In this document: piece after piece, positions 2,878 through 21,044 of the stretch
Layout of the letters: every line of letters starts with the position of its first letter
Numbering within the stretch: the first letter of the stretch is position 1
Virus record (IMG/VR): IMGVR_UViG_3300049460_000375
Coordinates: 1-21,044 of that record
DNA: 21,044 nucleotides
Strand: one strand, 5' to 3'
From: a virus
Made by a program: the position numbers and the translations under genes
Notes under the pieces: generated by a model
Told to the model about the DNA's origin: nothing
Databases searched by the model: none
What the model saw: the letters and a program-made list of their open reading frames with translations, nothing else

Positions 2878-4355
2878 GGTTGCTCCTTGTCATCGTTGGT
2901 GACGATGGCGTCGAGAGTGTTGTAATTAAGGCCAAGGGTCGTGGCGCGTTGCAGATCAGCCGCGTTTTCCGCATCGACCGTTTCCGCGTCATAGCCGGTG
3001 CGCAGGACCATCTCGCTACGCGAAGCGAAACCGGCTTGCACTTCCATGCGACGGGCCTGAACGTCCTGCACCGGCTGGATGTAGGCCCAACCTTGTGGCA
3101 CCCAACGAGTACGCAGGTATTCACGGCGCCGCTGGGTGTAGTCCTCCAGCACCAGCACACCCGACAACACGGCCATGTCCATCCAGGCCGCCCGCACTGG
3201 GCGGCAGAGTTGGTGCACGTAGACACCGAATTGCAGTTGCTCAAGCCGACGCCGAAACTCGTTGAGCACCACACGCAGCGCCCGGTCGTTGACCTCGCGC
3301 ATGTCGCCGGTGAGGATCTCGTAAGGCGTCCCTGTCCCCGCCGCCGCAGCCATCAGCTGCTGCCGCATGAAGTCCGGATAGTTGTTGCCCGCATCCGGCG
3401 GTTTGGAGAACTCCACCTCTTCACCCGGCCCCAGCTCCTGCATGGTGCCGGGCTCCAGCGCCACCATCGGCGTGAAGCCATCACGGTCAGTGCTCAACAA
3501 CTGTCCGGTGAGTGGATCCCTGGGCACTGGTCCGGAGTCCGGAGCCGGCCGACTGATGAAACCGGCAAACAGGTTGGCCACCTCCTGACGGAACAACACT
3601 GCGTCGTCGTAGTTGTCGAGACTGCGCAGACGCTTGAGCACCGGCGACAATCGCGGCACGCCGCGCAGCTGACCCGGCTCGATCGGCTCAAAGATATGCA
3701 GCACCTGTGACGCAGGCACGCGCACCAACTGGTTGTAACCGGCGTTCAGCGACGACGCATCGCGCGGATGCGACAGGTACATCCAGTACGCTACCCGCTT
3801 GCCACCCGGTGTGAACTCGATCCCGGCGCGGATGATGTTGCCGGTTTTGGTGGTTTCAAACTTGTCATGCGGTACGAACTCCGGGGCCAGGATCTGGAGC
3901 TGCAGCGGTACCGCGAGGCCTTCGTCCAAAGCGCGAGGTCGTAGCCGCACAAAACATTCACCTGAAGTTTCTACCGTGCGCGCCGCCAGCGCCTGCTGGC
4001 CGTAGAAGTCGGTGCACTCATCGGCGTCCGACTCATCGACCCAGTCGTCCCAGAGTTCCTGCAGCAATTTGCGCAGGACTTCGTCGTCGGTTTTCGGTCG
4101 CGGCGTGATGCCGGTACCGATCAGGTTGCTGACGCGCTTATCAATCACGTTGAAGGCATACGGGTCATTGCGAACCGCTGCCCGGGAGCGCGAACGCAAG
4201 TTACGCAATGCCGGGGTGTTGATGCTGTTGACCCCGTTGTCGGGAGCATCCCAGCCAGTGGATCGTCGGCCCTCCCCGGCACCTTCGTAACTGGCCTTGA
4301 TGTTCGACGGCAACACGAATCCGTTACGGGTGAGCGTCGGAAAGTGACGGGCCAT
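2874..4355 (-). CDS. Portal protein, lambda gpB family
   Basis: Forms the dodecameric ring at one head vertex through which DNA is packaged and ejected. The 493-residue product has the Phage_portal_2 pattern: RARSRAAVRNDPYA-like N terminus (residues 52-67), a VSNLIGTGI segment near 75-83, VETSGECFVRLR near 130, and GTGTPYEILTGDM near 350, followed by the C-terminal EFRRRLEQLQ helix. Its ATG overlaps the TAA of gpW by one base (TAATG), and its stop overlaps the protease start as ATGA. The tight coupling in the lambda order W-B-C supports the call. Confidence 0.94.
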   Translation of the reverse strand: MARHFPTLTRNGFVLPSNIKASYEGAGEGRRSTGWDAPDNGVNSINTPALRNLRSRSRAAVRNDPYAFNVIDKRVSNLIGTGITPRPKTDDEVLRKLLQELWDDWVDESDADECTDFYGQQALAARTVETSGECFVRLRPRALDEGLAVPLQLQILAPEFVPHDKFETTKTGNIIRAGIEFTPGGKRVAYWMYLSHPRDASSLNAGYNQLVRVPASQVLHIFEPIEPGQLRGVPRLSPVLKRLRSLDNYDDAVLFRQEVANLFAGFISRPAPDSGPVPRDPLTGQLLSTDRDGFTPMVALEPGTMQELGPGEEVEFSKPPDAGNNYPDFMRQQLMAAAAGTGTPYEILTGDMREVNDRALRVVLNEFRRRLEQLQFGVYVHQLCRPVRAAWMDMAVLSGVLVLEDYTQRRREYLRTRWVPQGWAYIQPVQDVQARRMEVQAGFASRSEMVLRTGYDAETVDAENAADLQRATTLGLNYNTLDAIVTNDDKEQP

Positions 4356-4561
4356 TAGAGTCCTTTGCCTCCGTGGGTCAGCCTGACCACGCGCGAGCGC
4401 GGCCCGGCAGCATTGATCAGCGACGAGCGGATTTCCTCGCGAGCCTTGAGCAGCTCGTCGACGGTGCGGTACTCCACGGTGCGGTCGGTGTAGCGCACGA
4501 CTTTTTCACCACGTGCGATGGCCGCCTCAACCGCATCGAGGTGCTTCTGGGTAAATGACAT
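4355..4561 (-). CDS. Head completion protein gpW
   Basis: Small head-tail joining protein that stabilises packaged DNA and prepares the portal vertex for gpFII. The product is 68 residues, the same length as lambda gpW, with the usual two helices around a short beta hairpin (VVRYTDRTVEYRT, about residues 21-33) and a basic C terminus. It sits immediately before the portal gene as in lambda. The ribosome site is weak (GAAGAGATCC upstream of ATG). The preceding 66 bases contain a possible terminase 3' remnant, described under findings. Confidence 0.9.
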   Translation of the reverse strand: MSFTQKHLDAVEAAIARGEKVVRYTDRTVEYRTVDELLKAREEIRSSLINAAGPRSRVVRLTHGGKGL

Positions 4562-4627
4562 ATTGGATCTCTTCAGATAGAGAGAGTGAAACGGGTTGGC
4601 TTGGGTGCGAAGTCGATAACCAACTGT

Positions 4628-5593
4628 TTAATCGCAGGCTTCGTCCCAAACCTTTGCCAGCCAGACGTTGTAGAACATCCGCATAAGCGATGCATCGCCA
4701 TCGATTTGTTTGGCTCTGGCCCATTCATACTGCTTAGCAAGGTGTGTCCACCCCAGCCAACCGGGCGGCGAATAGAGTGCATTGAGATGGAAACCACTCG
4801 TTTCGCCGTCGCCTTCCGAATGAGAACGCCACTCGCCCAGACTGAGCATCTCACCCAAATGGTGTTCTGCGATTGGAGAGCTACAGAAGGCGTTTATGCA
4901 CCGGTAATGCACCGTCTGAAAGTCAGACGAATACTGCATTTGTTCCCACTCCAAAGTTTGCATGTGGTCGCAATGAGGGCACGGCACGTAGTAGTGGCGC
5001 TGATCGCTTGCTGAGAACAAGCTATCAATCTTTGAGTTATCTTTGATTGTCGGTGTACCAGTGAAATAGAACTTTGGCGCACGGACTGACGTATCGTGGC
5101 AACGTTCAGCCAACTCGATTAAGTCGACGCCTTCCTCAGGCCAATGGTCTATTTGTTCACCACAGACATAATCAACGGGGAACGCTTGACCGACCAACGA
5201 GCCTGCCCAAACTAAACGAAGCGAACCGCCTTCAAAAGACCTGGTGCACGCGCCACCGCGAGGCGAAAAACATTTGTGAAGGATCGGACTCGCCTTAAAG
5301 CTTTTGTTGATGCGGTAGCCCAGTCGCGCTGCAAGGCGACCTGTAGGCAGCAAAACCAATATGTTCGATGGCGATGTATGGACCAGGGATCCGATCCAGT
5401 TGATAGCAACCTGAGTTTTCATCAACCCCGAAGCGGCCATGACCACCACTCGCTTGCAAGGGTGGGTCAGTGAAAGACACCGCATTGGCTCTTGGGCATA
5501 TGGTGTTTTTTTTACACGGTACGGACCCGGCTCAAGGCCGGAATCTCGCGGGATCCACATATGCTTAGCAGCCCACTCATCGACATAAGTCAT
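4628..5593 (-). CDS. Truncated TerL-like paralogue (ATPase half only)
   Basis: A 321-residue diverged copy of residues about 25-357 of the neighbouring terminase large subunit; by hand count roughly 60% of the first 107 aligned residues are identical. Kept: the Walker A-like loop ASGLMKT (54-60), the coupling-motif region FYFTGTPT (about 175-182) and the zinc knuckle C205-x2-C208 / C232-x4-C237. Changed: the Walker B GDEID of the terminase is GEQID here (145-149), replacing the Asp with Glu and the likely catalytic Glu with Gln. Absent: the first 24 residues (TerS-binding region in lambda gpA) and the whole nuclease and C-terminal domains. The ATG abuts the TAA of full-length terL, so it is probably translationally coupled. 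GC is near 51% in sampled lines versus about 62% in terL. The long open frame despite strong divergence argues for selection. Function is unknown; a non-hydrolysing modulator or decoy of packaging is my inference. Confidence 0.85.
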   Translation of the reverse strand: MTYVDEWAAKHMWIPRDSGLEPGPYRVKKTPYAQEPMRCLSLTHPCKRVVVMAASGLMKTQVAINWIGSLVHTSPSNILVLLPTGRLAARLGYRINKSFKASPILHKCFSPRGGACTRSFEGGSLRLVWAGSLVGQAFPVDYVCGEQIDHWPEEGVDLIELAERCHDTSVRAPKFYFTGTPTIKDNSKIDSLFSASDQRHYYVPCPHCDHMQTLEWEQMQYSSDFQTVHYRCINAFCSSPIAEHHLGEMLSLGEWRSHSEGDGETSGFHLNALYSPPGWLGWTHLAKQYEWARAKQIDGDASLMRMFYNVWLAKVWDEACD

Positions 5594-7597
5594 TTAACGT
5601 CTCTTCAAGTAGCCGCTACTGGAACTACGGCGTTGAGGTAATGCCGAGGGTCGCGATTGCACGACTGCAACAGCGGCTTGCTGGGTGGCAGCGGGGGTTG
5701 CTTGTTCGGCAGTGAGTCGTTCGCCTTGAACAGGTTTGACGCTCAAGGCGTCGTCAAATAGACCGGACTGCGCCAGGGACTGACGCACACGCTCCCAGTC
5801 GTGTTCCTTGTAACGGTTGAGACCCAGGTAATGCGCCATGGCCAGGCAATACACCATCAAGTCGAGCGCTTCGTTACGCTCGGCCTTGCCCTTGACCCAC
5901 TCGATGCGCTTGTGGCCGCGGATGTAGCGCGCAACCTTGCGCTCCGCGACGCACTGATCAAAGAAGTCGTCCGGCAAGTCATTAGCGAAGTGCAACGCAC
6001 CTGGCCCGGTAGGGAACGAATAACGGTTATAGATCCAGTCCTTGGCCGTGTCGGTACCGACGAACCACAGCTCGGCGCCGTTGCGTTCGGTCTGGCCCTT
6101 CCAGGTCACGTCGACCATCGACGGGCGCTGAGCAATCACCGGCTTACCGGGTTTGCTCGCGCCCTTGATGGCGAACACATTTCGCCAGCGGCGAACGCGG
6201 CAGAACTGGTAGACCTCATCGGTGTGGTGGCCACCGGAGTCGACGGCTACCGCGAGAATGCCAAGACCGACACCGCAGGGATGGCGATATTTAGCCTTAA
6301 GCAATTCGTCCAACGCCGCCCAGGTGCGTTCATCTGCGGGATCGCCCGAGACCACCTGGTAGTCGACGACCCAGCGCTCCATGCCGACGCCCCAGCCCAT
6401 GGCCATGAACTCCAGGCGGTTGGCCTGGACGTCGACGGAGCCGGTGATCATCAGCACCGCCGCCGACAGTGAGCCTAGGGTGAAGCCTTCCAACCGCGCC
6501 CGCTGTCTAAGCTCATCGGCTTTGGTTTGCTCTTGTGCGCTGTCCCAGACCTTCGCCAGACGGGTGTTGTAAAACACCTGCATCGGTTCCAGGTCGCCTT
6601 TGGCCTGGGCTTTCTTGGCCTTCTCGAATTGTTTGGCCAGCGACTTCCAGTCCATCCAGCCCAACGGCGAATACAGCGCGTTAAGGTGGAAGCCCACCGT
6701 CTCGCCATCGCCTTCGGCATGGGCACACCATTCACCTTTGGCGAGCATTTCGCCTTTATGGTATTCATCGATCAGCACATCGCAGTCAGGACCGGCGCAC
6801 TGGTAATGCACGACGCTGTAGTCCTTCGAGTAATGCAGTCGCTCCCACTCAAGGATTTGCATGTGCCCGCAGCTCGGGCACGGCACGTAGTAGTAACGCT
6901 GGTCGCTGCCCTCGAAAAGGTCGGAGATCCGCGAGGCGCCCCTGATCGTCGGCGAGCTGGAGAAATAAAACTTCGCATTGCGGCCGAAGGTACTGCCCCG
7001 CGTCTCCGCCAGCTCGATGGGGTCGCCCTCTTCACCGATGTCCACTTCCCAGCGATCGATCTCATCACCGTAAACGTAGCGCGCCGACAGCTCCGAGAGG
7101 TTGGCCGCCGAGCCAGCGGTGGTCACGTACAACGACCCGCCCTCGAATTCCTTGGTGTCCATGGTGTTGCGCGAATCCCGCGAACGGCTGGACGCCACAC
7201 GCTCGCGCAGTACCGGCGTGGCCTTGATGGTTTTGCCGATCCGCGACGACACCCGCTTGGCCAGGCCGAGGCTCGGTAGCAGAGTCAGGATATTGGACGG
7301 CGCCATGTGGATCAGACCGCCGATCCAGTTCAAGGCGATCTGCGTTTTCATCAGCTGCGAGGCGACCATGGTGATCACGCGTTTGCAGGGGTGAGCCGGC
7401 GACAGGCAGCGCATGGGTTCGCGGGCATAGGGCGTGCGGGACGTGCGGTACTGGCCTGGCTCAGCGGCACCGGTGTCACGCGGGATACGCATGTACTCGT
7501 CGGCCCACTCATCGACCCAGACGTCCGGGTCAGGATGCAGCCCACGAAAATATGCCTCCCGGTACACCTCAGCACCGTCAGGGATTTCCGTGGGCAT
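5594..7597 (-). CDS. Terminase large subunit, lambda gpA family
   Basis: Motor ATPase and cos-cutting nuclease that packages phage DNA. The 667-residue product is about the size of lambda gpA (641). Domains in order: N-terminal TerS-interaction segment (about 1-30), ATPase with the deviant Walker A VASQLMKT ending at K84-T85, Walker B GDEID (D178, E179), coupling-motif region YFSSSPT (211-217), zinc knuckle C240-x2-C243 / C267-x4-C272, then the RNase H-like nuclease with acidic residues D389 (SVDVQ), D453 (AVDSGGHHT) and D580-region (NEALDLMVYCLAMAHYLG, about 575-592), and a low-complexity Ala/Gln/Ser tail. Start lies 4 nt after the terS stop with a poor ribosome site, suggesting coupling. 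All expected catalytic residues appear present. Confidence 0.97.
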   Translation of the reverse strand: MPTEIPDGAEVYREAYFRGLHPDPDVWVDEWADEYMRIPRDTGAAEPGQYRTSRTPYAREPMRCLSPAHPCKRVITMVASQLMKTQIALNWIGGLIHMAPSNILTLLPSLGLAKRVSSRIGKTIKATPVLRERVASSRSRDSRNTMDTKEFEGGSLYVTTAGSAANLSELSARYVYGDEIDRWEVDIGEEGDPIELAETRGSTFGRNAKFYFSSSPTIRGASRISDLFEGSDQRYYYVPCPSCGHMQILEWERLHYSKDYSVVHYQCAGPDCDVLIDEYHKGEMLAKGEWCAHAEGDGETVGFHLNALYSPLGWMDWKSLAKQFEKAKKAQAKGDLEPMQVFYNTRLAKVWDSAQEQTKADELRQRARLEGFTLGSLSAAVLMITGSVDVQANRLEFMAMGWGVGMERWVVDYQVVSGDPADERTWAALDELLKAKYRHPCGVGLGILAVAVDSGGHHTDEVYQFCRVRRWRNVFAIKGASKPGKPVIAQRPSMVDVTWKGQTERNGAELWFVGTDTAKDWIYNRYSFPTGPGALHFANDLPDDFFDQCVAERKVARYIRGHKRIEWVKGKAERNEALDLMVYCLAMAHYLGLNRYKEHDWERVRQSLAQSGLFDDALSVKPVQGERLTAEQATPAATQQAAVAVVQSRPSALPQRRSSSSGYLKRR

Positions 7598-7601
7598 GGG
7601 T

Positions 7602-8159
7602 TTAACTCGTGGTCAGGGCGTGTTCAAGATCCGCCGAGGACAAGCGTTCTGCATCCTCAAGCGAGCGACGGATAGCGGCGGTCAGGTGCTTTTCGATTTG
7701 CCAGGGATCGGTCATGACGGCCAGTTCCGGTGCCAGTTGCGGGGGCATGCCCAGCAGCTGGTCCCGCAACAGGCGGCCTGCGTTGAAGGCGCCGGTTTCC
7801 ACCGCGATACGCTCGACCAAGGTGCCCTGCTGTTTGTGGAAGTTGGCTTGCTCTTGCAGGGCCAGGTAATGCTCGCGCAGAGCCCGGGACTTTTGGAAGT
7901 CCACCGCCTGCCCGACTTGCGGCACCGCAGGTTCTTCGGCGGCGATTTCAGCCTCCCTTTGAAGGCGAAGCCGTTCGTGTCGGGTGGCGACGGCGGCTTT
8001 GCTTGGGTCGGCGGACTCGACCAGCAGGGCTTCGGTGGCTTCCAGCTCCACCTTGCCATCGTCGGTCAGTACCAATCGATCCTGATTGGCCAACTTGGAC
8101 ACATACGATTTGGCCCAGCCACGCCGTGCCGCAAACTCCGTTTTGCTGATTACAGTCAT
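7602..8159 (-). CDS. Terminase small subunit, Nu1-like
   Basis: DNA-recognition subunit that binds cos and recruits the large subunit. The 185-residue product starts with a winged-helix-type domain (about 1-50; SKTEFAARRGWAKSYVSKLA is the helix-turn-helix), matching the Nu1 pattern, followed by a charged helical stretch (EAEIAAEEPAV, then SRALREHYLALQEQANFHK) that is probably the dimerisation coiled coil. The C terminus (about 130-185) is the expected TerL-binding end. Lambda Nu1 is 181 residues. Start at 8159 has AGGA about 9 nt upstream. It is the first gene of the packaging operon and lies next to the presumed cos region. Confidence 0.9.
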   Translation of the reverse strand: MTVISKTEFAARRGWAKSYVSKLANQDRLVLTDDGKVELEATEALLVESADPSKAAVATRHERLRLQREAEIAAEEPAVPQVGQAVDFQKSRALREHYLALQEQANFHKQQGTLVERIAVETGAFNAGRLLRDQLLGMPPQLAPELAVMTDPWQIEKHLTAAIRRSLEDAERLSSADLEHALTTS

Positions 8160-16885: not shown

Positions 16886-17953
16886 ATGCGCCAGAAGAAA
16901 GCCGCAAACCGGGATCTGCCGCCACGGATGATCCGCCGTAGCCGCAAAAGAAAGAACGGAAGTACCTGGGTGGGCTACTACTACAACGGTCGGGACGCCG
17001 AAGGGAACCGAGTCGAAATTCCGCTCGGCGGCGACCTCGATGAAGCCAAAGTCGAATGGGCACGTCTGGATCGCAAAGCCACACCCAAGCCTGCTCACCT
17101 GATGGGCAGGTTTTTCGACGACTACGAAAGAAAGGTCATCCCTGGGCTGAAGCCCGGCACCCAAAAGGACTACTTGAAAGGCCTCAAACAACTACGCAAC
17201 GCGTTCGAATCGGCCCCTGTAGATGCGGTCACCCCGCAAGTGATTGCCCAGTATCGCGACGCCAGAACAGCAAAGGTGCGCGCCAACCGCGAGATCGCCC
17301 TCCTCTCAACCATATTCACCTTTGCCCGCGAATGGGGGCTCACTGAAAAGGCAAACCCTTGCGCCCGCTTGCGCAGGAACAAAGAAACACCCCGCGACTT
17401 CTACGCAGGCAAAATCGTTTGGGATGCGGTGTACACAGAGGCACCGCCCGAGCTTAAAGACGCAATGGACCTAGCCTACCTAACCGGCCAGCGCCCCGCC
17501 GATGTGCTCAAAGCATCAACTGCCGACTTGAACAACGGGTTCCTGATGGTAGGCCAGGGCAAGACTGAGAAACGCCTGCGTATCCGACTACACGACGGCG
17601 CAGACGCATCAGGGCTCAGCATCTTCCTCGATGCCCTGCTCGAGCGCAAAGCCATGGCCGGTATCAGAAGTTCAAGCCTGATCACCAACCAGGCGGGCCT
17701 GCGAATGAGTTACGCAATGCTGAGAAATCGGTGGGATGAAGCCCGAGAAAAAGCAGCCGCGAAGGCCGCGGCCGAAGGTGATGCAACGCTTACCGCCGCG
17801 ATCCGCCAGTTCCAATTCCGCGACATCCGACCAAAAGCTGCCAGCGAAATTGACGACATTAGTCATGCTAGCCGCCTACTTGGCCACTCAACTCAGGAGA
17901 TGACGAAAAAGGTTTATCGCCGTGTTGGTGAAATTGTACGACCCACAAAATAA
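16886..17953 (+). CDS. Tyrosine site-specific integrase
   Basis: Catalyses prophage integration and excision at att. The 355-residue product has an N-terminal arm-binding domain (about 12-70, strand-rich around TWVGYYYNGRD), a core-binding helical domain (about 70-165) and a catalytic domain with R203 (TGQRPADV), K226 (QGKTEKR), the box II motif RDIR (312-315), H334 (LLGHST) and the nucleophile Y344 (KKVYRRVG). Box II has Arg where many integrases have His (HxxR), as seen in several lambda-like members. It is the last gene of the rightward operon, next to the presumed att end of the prophage. Confidence 0.95.
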   Translation: MRQKKAANRDLPPRMIRRSRKRKNGSTWVGYYYNGRDAEGNRVEIPLGGDLDEAKVEWARLDRKATPKPAHLMGRFFDDYERKVIPGLKPGTQKDYLKGLKQLRNAFESAPVDAVTPQVIAQYRDARTAKVRANREIALLSTIFTFAREWGLTEKANPCARLRRNKETPRDFYAGKIVWDAVYTEAPPELKDAMDLAYLTGQRPADVLKASTADLNNGFLMVGQGKTEKRLRIRLHDGADASGLSIFLDALLERKAMAGIRSSSLITNQAGLRMSYAMLRNRWDEAREKAAAKAAAEGDATLTAAIRQFQFRDIRPKAASEIDDISHASRLLGHSTQEMTKKVYRRVGEIVRPTK

Positions 17954-18198: not shown

Positions 18199-19149
18199 CT
18201 AGATTGAAGCACTGAATGGCAATGCTTTAATGTATCGCTCCATGAATAGCCAATCTGGCGCGCCATGACCATCGACCGGCAGATACATTAAGGATTCTTT
18301 CATCCTCGCTATGCCCCACTTCCTCCCGTAACTATAACGGTATCGCTCCTTCTTAATGAGAGCACATAAAAACAGCGCAACATATTTGTTGATATTGAAT
18401 TTTGGCGTGAATATATGAACGTCTTCAGTCGAGCAAAACGGCTTATCCTGATAAAACGCATTAGCCACGCTATTTCCGTTACGAACTACGGAAATAACTC
18501 CTGCTTGGTGCATTGGCGCATGGTCGGTTTTACTTGTGACGCCGTTATTAAATTCTGAAGCGCTCACAAAAGGATATTTGCCTACGCCATTTAGCTCTTT
18601 TTTTCTCGGTCCGCGCCCTCTATCAATTTCAAATATGTCTTCATATTTGAAAGGCTTCAAGGCGCTCAGGTCTAGCTCAACAATTTCGTCAATCAAGCTT
18701 TGTGAAATATTATCTGCGGCAGCTATATTGGCGTGCCTCACCCACTCAGGTACCGAGTCCAACGCAGGAATTTTTATTTCTGAAAGTGTTCTATTTGCCT
18801 GTCGACCATAATTATATCTATATTTATTTGCACGCAAGCAGGCGCAGTAGAATATCTTCTCCTGACTTGACATGTCGACTTTTGCAGTTAAATAATATAA
18901 GTCCCGACCACTATAGAAAGGTTCAGATTGCAAGAAAGACTCCATAACGGAACCTCCGCATGCGACTGTAATTGAACCAGCAGGAAGAGGATTTAAGCCC
19001 TCGACCAAGCAGATTCTTGCGGACACTCCGTTATTTTTTGCCGTTCGAGATACAAACGGCACACCATCAGGATCAACAACTTGCTTGTTTAGTTCAAGAT
19101 TCGATCCGTATCTAACTTCAAACAAATCTGCAACGCTTACAAGCTTCAC
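18199..19149 (-). CDS. Type IIB/I restriction-modification specificity subunit (BcgIB-like)
   Basis: DNA-recognition subunit that directs the adjacent methylase-nuclease to a split target. The 316-residue product is built of two similar target-recognition halves: FEVRYGSNLELNK, PFVSRTAKNNGVSARI, EPFYSGRDLYYLTAK and KYRYNYGRQANR (about 11-120) match FEIDRGRGPRKKEL, PFVSASEFNNGVTSKT, KPFCSTEDVHIFTPK and RYRYSYGRKWGI (about 172-290). A helical linker lies between them (about 138-165). It starts at a GTG that overlaps the methylase stop (GTGA). BcgIB, as I recall, is about 340 residues. The gene is AT-rich compared with the prophage, indicating separate transfer. Confidence 0.88.
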   Translation of the reverse strand: MKLVSVADLFEVRYGSNLELNKQVVDPDGVPFVSRTAKNNGVSARICLVEGLNPLPAGSITVACGGSVMESFLQSEPFYSGRDLYYLTAKVDMSSQEKIFYCACLRANKYRYNYGRQANRTLSEIKIPALDSVPEWVRHANIAAADNISQSLIDEIVELDLSALKPFKYEDIFEIDRGRGPRKKELNGVGKYPFVSASEFNNGVTSKTDHAPMHQAGVISVVRNGNSVANAFYQDKPFCSTEDVHIFTPKFNINKYVALFLCALIKKERYRYSYGRKWGIARMKESLMYLPVDGHGAPDWLFMERYIKALPFSASI

Positions 19150-21044
19150 TCTGGTGCCTCCAAGTCATCCTCAAGCCCAGACTCATCAACTTCTAGAATT
19201 TCTTCCTCCCGCAAAATATTGAACACTAGAAATTTCTTTACAGCCTCCTCGAAGTCAGCCTTCAACACCCCGGAGTAATCTGTTTCCATATAAGCTTCTG
19301 CGCACCATTCGTCATCTGCAGTGACTTGTTTTTTAACACATAAGCCAGGTATATCTTCTCTGTTCTTATAGGAATAAAGCCATTTCTCTCTAATCTCCTC
19401 CCAGCGGCCGGAGAAGTCTGTCCGACCTTGCTGCTTGGTTTTCTCAAACCCATCATCTTTCCAATACCCAAACCACGTTTTTCTGCTTTCAGCTGCATGT
19501 GGTTTGTGAGCGGTGAAGACCATAATGCATGTGATAGTCCCCACCGGGGTGAAAAGCTCATCAGGCATGGACATAACGGCTTCAAGGCAGTGTTTAGATA
19601 ATAAGCTATGCTTTGTTTCATGCGGTGTTATCACACAAGACATCGGAACAATGGCGATTCCTGTGCCCCCTACTTTCAAACAATCAAGCATGTGCTCAAC
19701 GAAAGCTAGCTCATGAAGACCTTTCCCCTTCTGAGCATAAGGTGGATTTATCATTCCTATATCAGGCTGACGAGAAATAATCTCCTTAGTAATCGCATCA
19801 TCAAAACAGCTTCCTTGATGCAAATTAGCTTTTCCATCACCGCGAAGAATCATATTACTTGCTGCAAGCGCATACATATTTGGTTGCTGTTCTACACCTA
19901 TCAACCCGTATTGCTTTACTCTTGATTTCTCCTCATCGGTTATGCATTTTTTAAACATTTGATGCATTGCGGAAACAAGGAAACCTCCGGTACCACAGCA
20001 GGGGTCAAAAACCGTGCTGTCCTTTTGCACGTTTGCAATTCGTGAAAAAAGATCTGTAATATGACGAGGAGTTAGAACGATTCCAAGTGCCTTTTTATCA
20101 CCGCCTGTGTATCGCAGAAACTCGCCATAAAACTGGCCAATAATATCGTAATCATGGTAGACACTTATGAACGGCCAGGCATGGATATTAATTTTGTCAA
20201 TTAAGTTATAAAGCGGACTTTCACCCGTTAGTTTGTCCGCTCGACTCAATTCTGGATGAACGCGCAGAAATGAGTATGGCTGAATCATGTTTTGTTTTTT
20301 TGCGTGAGGTATATCAGACTTCTTGATTTCCTCCTCAATAGCATCGCAGAGTTTCTCTGGCAGCTCGTCTGGGGTGTACACAGAAAATACTTTTGAGAAA
20401 ACAAAATTACTTAAAGCAATCAAAACCCCGCTTACTAAAAGTGGCTTTTCACTTTCACTGAGTTTTGCGTAATCACGCATGTAATTGTGAAGATCTTTCG
20501 AGAAAGACATTAAATCCGAAAGGCGCCCTTTTTCAACCTCTGGATCGTAGGTTGCATGTTCGATTAGATTCTCAAAACCTATTATTTTATCGATCTGGGT
20601 GCCACTTTTATTATTCAAAGGCTTGTAGTCAGGAATTACGCCCGCTACGCTTCTAGGTTGTAAATATGTCGAAATACGCAAGCTGCCTTTTGTCTGTCCG
20701 CTACAGCCTATAGCGATGACATTAAACTCTTTTGCGAGATAACTTGCGTAATGGAGAGCACCATCAGCAGCAAAATCTTTGGGGCAGTCCAAGAGTTCGC
20801 TAGCGTGCTTTTTATTATCCGCCTTGCATTCAAAAATGATTACAAAGTCTTGTATTTTTTTTGATTTTATTATGAATTCCGGAGCACCTACGCCACCCTT
20901 TCCAGTTTTGCTTGCACTTCTAAGCAGGCTTTGTATTTTTGTATTCTGACTTTTCTGCTCTTCAATTATTATATCTTCATTGTCGAAGTAACCAAGATTT
21001 CTGAGCGTATCCCTAACTATATTTTCAGTAATTCTTTCGTTCAT
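19146..21044 (-). CDS. Fused nuclease-adenine methylase (BcgIA-like)
   Basis: Cuts and methylates DNA together with the specificity subunit. The 632-residue product is close to BcgIA (about 640). The N terminus has a PD-(D/E)xK-type nuclease: G-A-P55-E56, then FECK with E72 and K74. The N6-adenine methylase domain follows: motif X region GIVLTPRHI (321-329), motif I DPCCGTGGF (347-355) and motif IV NPPY (433-436). The C terminus is acidic. The ATG at 21042-21044 lies at the window edge; an upstream start outside the window is possible but MNERITENIVRDTL is a sensible beginning. Low GC, with T-rich stretches near 25% GC at 20821-20880, differs from the prophage. Confidence 0.88.
   Translation of the reverse strand: MNERITENIVRDTLRNLGYFDNEDIIIEEQKSQNTKIQSLLRSASKTGKGGVGAPEFIIKSKKIQDFVIIFECKADNKKHASELLDCPKDFAADGALHYASYLAKEFNVIAIGCSGQTKGSLRISTYLQPRSVAGVIPDYKPLNNKSGTQIDKIIGFENLIEHATYDPEVEKGRLSDLMSFSKDLHNYMRDYAKLSESEKPLLVSGVLIALSNFVFSKVFSVYTPDELPEKLCDAIEEEIKKSDIPHAKKQNMIQPYSFLRVHPELSRADKLTGESPLYNLIDKINIHAWPFISVYHDYDIIGQFYGEFLRYTGGDKKALGIVLTPRHITDLFSRIANVQKDSTVFDPCCGTGGFLVSAMHQMFKKCITDEEKSRVKQYGLIGVEQQPNMYALAASNMILRGDGKANLHQGSCFDDAITKEIISRQPDIGMINPPYAQKGKGLHELAFVEHMLDCLKVGGTGIAIVPMSCVITPHETKHSLLSKHCLEAVMSMPDELFTPVGTITCIMVFTAHKPHAAESRKTWFGYWKDDGFEKTKQQGRTDFSGRWEEIREKWLYSYKNREDIPGLCVKKQVTADDEWCAEAYMETDYSGVLKADFEEAVKKFLVFNILREEEILEVDESGLEDDLEAPE

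Follow-up and report, generated by a model that had tools for sequence, protein, structure and literature searches.

A rare gene between terL and gpW corresponds to the ATPase part of the large terminase subunit and probably encodes a pseudo-ATPase

The window, by which we mean the whole stretch of 21,044 nucleotides analysed (IMG/VR virus record IMGVR_UViG_3300049460_000375), carries a lambda-type head module on its minus strand. A probable terS (7602..8159), named by position and size and without a Pfam match, is followed by a complete gpA-type terL (5594..7597; 667 aa), which is assigned from its reading frame, Pfam and alignment and has an intact Walker B GDE. Next comes a half-TerL gene of 321 aa (4628..5593), then a spacer from its stop codon to gpW (4562..4627), and then a gene for a gpW-like head-tail adaptor (4355..4561; phrog_2545). 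The portal, a Clp-type protease, decoration protein D and capsid E are encoded 3′ of gpW, in that order and on the same strand. The host is probably Pseudomonas: among named phages, those of Pseudomonas have the closest TerLs (65.6% identity and below) and portal genes (72–73% DNA identity). Near an integrase (16886–17953), the minus strand also encodes a DNA specificity subunit (18199–19149) and an N6 methylase or type IIG-like restriction-methylation protein (19146–21044), which may be either cargo of a prophage or DNA of the host.

The half-gene ATG (5593–5591) directly abuts the terL stop codon (5594–5596), and the reading frame on the minus strand contains no internal stop across its 321 codons. 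This agrees with an earlier note on the same DNA, which had claimed an intact gene of this length between terL and gpW. The note had further limited the homology to the ATPase part of TerL and described the start and the post-ATPase parts of TerL as absent, and our comparisons bear this out. The half protein matches Pfam GpA_ATPase (PF05876; E 3e-50) over residues 21–255. Its match to GpA_nuclease (PF20454) covers only columns 2–52 of 294, at residues 266–319, which in the fold comparison still fall in the region that aligns with ATPase domains of TerLs. The alignment with the adjoining TerL spans residues 26–354 of 667 and has 181 of 330 positions identical (55%), so that 45% of aligned residues differ, rather than the approximately 40% given earlier. 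The half protein is thus without the TerS-binding N-terminus, the complete nuclease and the portal-binding C-terminus. In lambda TerL, portal docking occurs via the C-terminus, and the TerS site is at the N-terminus (PMC9026076, accessible part). Alignment and predicted model both place the ends of the half gene at the borders of the ATPase domain of TerL.

An SD-like GAAGAG lies within the 3′ end of terL, 7 nt ahead of the half-gene ATG (5601..5606, minus strand), and a second one lies 7 nt ahead of gpW (4569..4574, minus strand). Both were read in the sequence and are putative ribosome-binding signals. At an empty site, in contig L090, GAAGAG stands at the terL end, ahead of gpW. Within positions 4300–5800 we found no sigma-70-like promoter (0.6 expected) and four terminator-like sites (1.7 expected). 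The half gene is likely made together with TerL through coupled translation. In the window it follows the terL TAA in frame (5591–5596), such that stop readthrough would yield a fusion. A conserved readthrough fusion was rejected, given a one-base shift at this point in L006 and L172.

The earlier note had proposed a search for further half-TerL copies beside a complete terL. We found at least eight additional IMG/VR contigs that bear the half gene at the same junction and in the same architecture. To gather carriers, we queried IMG/VR with the half protein, two relatives, TerL and a junction pattern; three of these scans took the best 80 of 155, 80 of 598 (TerL query) and 80 of 156 stretches. 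Two of the contigs (L003 and L004) encode a half protein identical to that of the window, and the others encode proteins with 89% (L005), 66% (L172), 62% (L006, L007 and L008) or 60% (L171) identity to it. In all there are six distinct half proteins (L007 equals L006), which belong to phages of three TerL lineages. None of the six has an internal stop, and five are intact to the end. The sixth, in L171 (5989–7101), is shifted by one base in its last codons, which lengthens the frame into gpW, and its P-loop Lys is changed to Asn; this copy is possibly in an early state of decay. The absence of stops and frameshifts that had been reported for the window therefore extends to five of six distinct copies. 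Presence in one assembly only, which would have pointed to an artefact, is contradicted by identical and diverged copies in other contigs.

We distinguished 146 terL/gpW junctions, counting those with a terL of at least 60% identity and a recognized gpW, and excluding 51 rows with an unmatched gpW or a contig end and 91 rows with a TerL below 60%. The junction is empty (up to 15 nt) in 124 of them, as the earlier note had expected of lambda-type cassettes. The half gene occupies 8 and another insert occupies 14; because this set was partly gathered with the half gene as query, 8/146 does not represent a frequency. The half gene is rare. A profile search of 398 bacterial genomes (E 1e-60) found no half frame, with matches in 66 genomes that were all frames of at least 609 aa, and a search of a second, overlapping draw of 398 genomes (E 1e-100) also found none, with matches in 39 and frames of at least 660 aa. 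Both draws were made around genome G287, which has an 86% identical TerL and is taken for Pseudomonas, and up to five candidates were scored per genome. Among 50,697 phage records there was no match at 60% or more, and the 113 plasmid records with a match were all below 60%. A scan of genome contigs gave five relatives with 26–38% identity, all of which are full-length TerL frames. As a separate observation, two metagenome contigs have a gpA-type TerL that is broken near TerL residue 195 into two frames that overlap (L185:2101-4249 and L186:3134-5282). These regions are equal at 2148 of 2149 bases and may reflect a genuine split, a programmed shift or a shared error.

The half proteins differ from TerL at residues expected to be catalytic. 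We take the names Walker B, catalytic Glu and coupling motif from the alignment and from general knowledge of the protein family. In the window, the Walker B pair at residues 146–147 (5153..5158, minus strand) is EQ, where TerL has DE. Among 253 distinct full-length TerL frames this pair is DE in 250, DD in 2 and GE in 1, compared to EQ in 4 and DN in 3 of seven half frames, which represent the six distinct proteins with that of the window counted as two frames. The catalytic Glu is accordingly present in 251/253 TerL frames and in 0/7 half frames, where Gln or Asn replaces it. TerL Arg200 is Arg in 251/253 TerL frames and Cys in 7/7 half frames; in the window, this is Cys165 (5099..5101, minus strand). 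The note's statement that the coupling motif is kept applies to part of it: where TerLs mostly have SSSPT (176 frames) or TSTPT (55), the half copies have SGTPT (4) or TGTPT (3). The zinc knuckle, by contrast, is retained as had been stated, with its four cysteines (C205, C208, C232 and C237; 4883..4981, minus strand) present in 6/6 distinct copies.

Conservation along the domain is uneven. Thirty-three sites fixed in 23 or all 24 of the TerLs compared are absent from all six half copies, and 26 of these 33 fall in residues 91–191; the losses include R141, replaced by D, and E147, replaced by Q or N. In addition, every one of the six copies has lost the same six columns of TerL (SRDSRN). Conversely, 73 sites are invariant across half copies and TerLs and are scattered over the whole domain. 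Identity between half-gene lineages is lowest at residues 96–140 (36–43%) and amounts to 93% at residues 196–215, 59% at 216–245 and 76% at 246–280, in the zinc-knuckle part. The P-loop region of the window reads ASGLMKT (5414..5434, minus strand; ASQLMKT in TerL). Nucleotide binding may persist, because the P-loop segment (residues 49–62) is 79% identical between lineages. The half protein is probably a pseudo-ATPase and not a working ATPase. Judging from the replaced residues, we consider it very likely that catalysis has been lost.

An AlphaFold model of the half protein has a pLDDT of 93.4 and a pTM of 0.91, and it leans to the TerL fold by construction, since the input alignment comprised 6 half copies and 35 TerL rows. 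The model resembles HK97 TerL (Z 21.5, 245 residues, 3.0 Å), the ATPase domain of P74-26 TerL (Z 20.7, 233 residues, 3.0 Å) and T4 gp17 (Z 18.0). It also matches residues 17–295 of the Avs3-bound PhiV-1 TerL chain (8dgc_E; Z 17.1, 227 residues, 3.3 Å), a non-specific result that any ATPase domain of a TerL should give. A sequence search of solved structures yielded nothing for TerL, and the half-protein profile gave matches at chance level only (E ≥0.19). The predicted structure indicates that the half protein keeps the TerL ATPase fold.

A tree built from 58 ATPase-domain rows unites the half copies in one clade with a support of 100/100 and a stem of 0.89. This clade joins the TerLs of the same phage group with 93/97 for the 29-row set, which is under the starred level, and the tree program warns of long branches. 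The half gene has a single origin, in a TerL of the gpA type from this group of phages, which probably infect Pseudomonas. The TerLs of the carriers belong to three lineages that are interspersed among other TerLs. At least three changes of presence are required on the TerL tree, in a count where rows without a visible half gene were coded as lacking it, though some of them leave the junction uncovered. Synonymous divergence of the half gene across lineages is near saturation, as it is for terL. Because the half genes form one clade, occur with three TerL lineages and have near-saturated dS, we read their history as a single, old insertion followed by many losses or by exchange through the flanks. 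A fresh tandem duplication was rejected because of the single clade with its stem of 0.89. Recent horizontal spread is not supported, in that the carriers have the same order in the half-gene tree as in the TerL tree, with the grouping of the window and L172 in the half-gene tree supported by only 91/65. Between lineages, dS of the half gene is at least that of terL, except for L006 and L171 (0.20 in the half gene versus 0.51 in terL), a pair in which terL identity is patchy.

The 3′ end of terL is repeated ahead of gpW in L172, where 20/24 bases match and the best match elsewhere has 13. The repeat is weak in L006 (15/24, elsewhere 13) and L171 (15/24, elsewhere 14) and is hardly or not present in L005 (13/24, elsewhere 12) and in the window (12/24, elsewhere 12, i.e., the background level). 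The repeat in the L172 spacer is what a tandem duplication with an inner loss would leave.

The half gene is under purifying selection that is weaker than that on TerL. For the two close pairs tested, its dN/dS by the Nei-Gojobori method is 0.34 (window and L005; bootstrap 0.20–0.58) and 0.24 (L006 and L171; bootstrap 0.14–0.41), and both intervals lie below 1. The corresponding values for the ATPase part of TerL are 0.043 and 0.039. Random uniform changes in the amount separating the window from L006 left an open frame in 2 of 20,000 trials, and in the amount separating it from L172, in 0 of 20,000; random changes for the close pairs alone left approximately 3% of frames open. Because dN/dS is below 1 yet above that of TerL, and because simulated frames break, we conclude that the frame is kept while evolving faster than TerL. 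The selection on the open frame that had been presumed earlier is thus borne out. Neither of the signs named in the note as pointing to a decaying duplicate, namely mostly frameshifted homologues or a dN/dS near 1, was found. Some of the half copies may nonetheless be decaying, since selection is much weaker than that on TerL, and L171 has both its shift and its P-loop substitution of Lys by Asn.

Comparison with a close relative shows the half gene as an insertion. L090 has a TerL 96% identical to that of the window and lacks the half gene. The terL DNA of the two is 90–98% identical until the last approximately 200 bases, where identity is 75–81%, and past the insert the first comparison windows are again 90–94% identical. 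In all six copies compared, GC3 of the half gene is 0.50–0.60, as opposed to 0.68–0.76 in terL. The half gene is therefore moron-like in two respects: it is present or absent at a fixed site between close flanks, and its base composition is unlike that of its neighbours.

Other inserts at the terL/gpW junction measure 506–532 bp (six cases: L116, L126, L140, L147, L152 and L156) or 729–737 bp (eight cases: L162, L167, L117, L118, L121, L149, L229 and L231), and most contain a leftward gene. This gene encodes about 145 aa (144–161 aa in 11/14 inserts, 109 aa in L140 and 80 aa in L156), and the L116 insert lacks any ATG frame that reaches 60 aa. Two leftward proteins were scanned, and both match phrog_2266, a family of unknown function; a model of one phrog_2266 protein had no match in the PDB at E ≤0.001. 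The larger inserts also bear a rightward ORF of about 83 aa, which in the one case scanned matches phrog_25421 (E 3.7e-6), likewise of unknown function. We rejected an assignment of this ORF to the Acb2/Tad1 anti-CBASS proteins, for which one of seven members gave one weak match (E 0.043, below the Pfam cut-off). Against PDB sequences, its profile gave a repeat protein with non-significant single stretches, and all else was at E ≥0.95. Because other optional genes occupy the same place, we regard the junction as a cargo site, which supports an accessory and non-essential role of the half gene.

The half protein is without the TerS contact, the complete nuclease, the portal tether and probably hydrolysis, and therefore seems unlikely to package DNA but able to bind. 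We consider it reasonably likely that it works through binding in place of TerL. One dead subunit is reported to stall the lambda motor, and the T4 motor is reported as impaired (PMC8589836, accessible part). A dead subunit beside the phage's own TerL should therefore harm the phage's own motor, which favours a partner outside the motor. Such a partner could be a bacterial defence protein, since the Avs1–Avs4 sensors are reported to recognise the terminase large subunit, the portal or one other phage protein (PMC12931631, accessible part).

Our preferred reading, which we put forward only tentatively, is that the half protein is a selected, dead TerL-ATPase paralogue that mimics TerL to occupy a host TerL sensor. 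The gene would be passed on as an accessory that only few phages have at the terL/gpW junction, and its product would act by binding instead of hydrolysis, presenting a TerL ATPase surface to a TerL binder. The target would be an immune sensor by which the host recognises the large terminase, of the Avs type of STAND ATPases, and the dead single-domain copy would occupy this sensor without triggering it. A host TerL sensor as the target is somewhat doubtful when taken as a claim of its own. A TerL-like decoy made together with TerL is plausible because Avs sensors are reported to recognise TerL; that the dead copy of the phage's own ATPase serves as a decoy antigen against host terminase sensors, appearing simultaneously with TerL, nevertheless has a low probability in our estimation. 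The terminase mimic proposed in the earlier note remains plausible, given a selected ATPase-only copy at a junction where most relatives have no insert, but it is probably not a working ATPase. The note had suggested that such a mimic might tune packaging, poison competitors or join mixed motors; to these possible roles we add that of a decoy for a host sensor. Similarly, the note's description of an intact, selected, ATPase-only copy of TerL stands, except that every copy has another residue in place of the catalytic Glu and carries an altered coupling motif.

The ends of the half gene would equally suit a protein that binds a packaging motor. One possibility is a dominant-negative poison, in which the dead domain enters the rings of co-infecting phages, or binds a terminase redirected by a satellite, and stalls them. 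The replaced catalytic residues, the predicted retention of the domain fold and the reported complete stalling of lambda motors, and impairment of T4 motors, by one dead subunit (PMC8589836, accessible part) are all consistent with it. However, the phage's own TerL, which is 55% identical in its ATPase part, adjoining and probably co-translated, would suffer first, and the half protein has neither the tether to the portal nor the part of TerL that binds TerS (domains as mapped in the accessible part of PMC9026076). We consider this explanation unlikely. An accessory or regulator of the phage's own motor is improbable to a similar degree. Here the non-hydrolysing domain would tune assembly, cos cleavage or ATP use of the adjoining TerL, which would fit a gene directly behind terL, on the same strand and with an SD-like site within the terL end, as well as lambda terminase rings, in which one TerL is reported to be less tightly bound (PMC10810279, accessible part). 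On the other hand, 138/146 distinct junctions are without the half gene, including that of L090 despite its 96% identical TerL, and the reported stalling of the lambda motor by a dead subunit (PMC8589836, accessible part) applies to this role as well.

The scaffold could also have been re-used for a new binding job unrelated to TerL, e.g., binding of nucleic acid via the zinc knuckle. Residues 196–215, which include two of the four cysteines, and 246–280 are much better conserved between lineages (93% and 76%) than residues 96–140 (36–43%), but the segment with the other two cysteines (216–245) reaches only 59%, while the P-loop segment (49–62) has 79%. Moreover, the 73 invariant sites are spread domain-wide, as they would be if the overall TerL surface were retained, so we give this explanation a small probability. 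A decaying duplicate without function, already disfavoured, is very improbable: although constraint is weaker than in TerL, GC3 is low, active-site residues are replaced and L171 has its 3′ shift and P-loop change, the dN/dS intervals exclude 1 in two pairs, frames are open across near-saturated dS, and the start is constant and the end nearly constant in three lineages.

TerL is widely conserved among tailed phages, and immune sensors of bacteria target it. An ATPase domain that occurs naturally as a separate gene beside a complete TerL, with its catalytic residues replaced, would either block the sensing of TerL or show how a coordinated motor tolerates a dead partner. Among the matches listed, we found no description of an ATPase-only TerL paralogue in the open-licence literature.

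Several known systems invite comparison. We liken the half gene to the moron or accessory genes of temperate phages. Like these, it is optional, sits at a fixed junction that takes other cargo and has a lower GC content; unlike these, it lies on the head-gene strand, derives from terL itself and has no promoter that we could find (0.6 expected). Relative to TerLs of the gpA type (lambda gpA; PF05876 and PF20454), it shares the homology of the ATPase domain, the predicted fold and the zinc-knuckle cysteines. It differs in being without the TerS-binding N-terminus, the complete nuclease and the portal tether, in having other residues where TerL has its catalytic Glu and one conserved Arg, and in adjoining a complete terL. 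No link is drawn to the Pseudomonas helper and satellite phages AH14a and AH14b, where the TerL of AH14a is a 440-aa protein (PMC4936722, accessible part). The half protein is also reminiscent of the ATPase-dead TerL used in motor doping (T4 gp17 Q163A; PMC8589836, accessible part), as a non-hydrolysing unit that could enter or disturb a motor. However, gp17 Q163A is a laboratory mutant, whereas the half gene is natural and separate, encodes the domain alone and has presumably lost hydrolysis. Finally, the predicted ATPase fold of the half protein is the same as that of the Avs3-bound PhiV-1 TerL (PDB 8dgc, Z 17.1; PMC12931631, accessible part). The PhiV-1 TerL is longer, at 538 residues, and is the protein seen bound to the sensor, whereas the decoy role of the half gene is our proposal.
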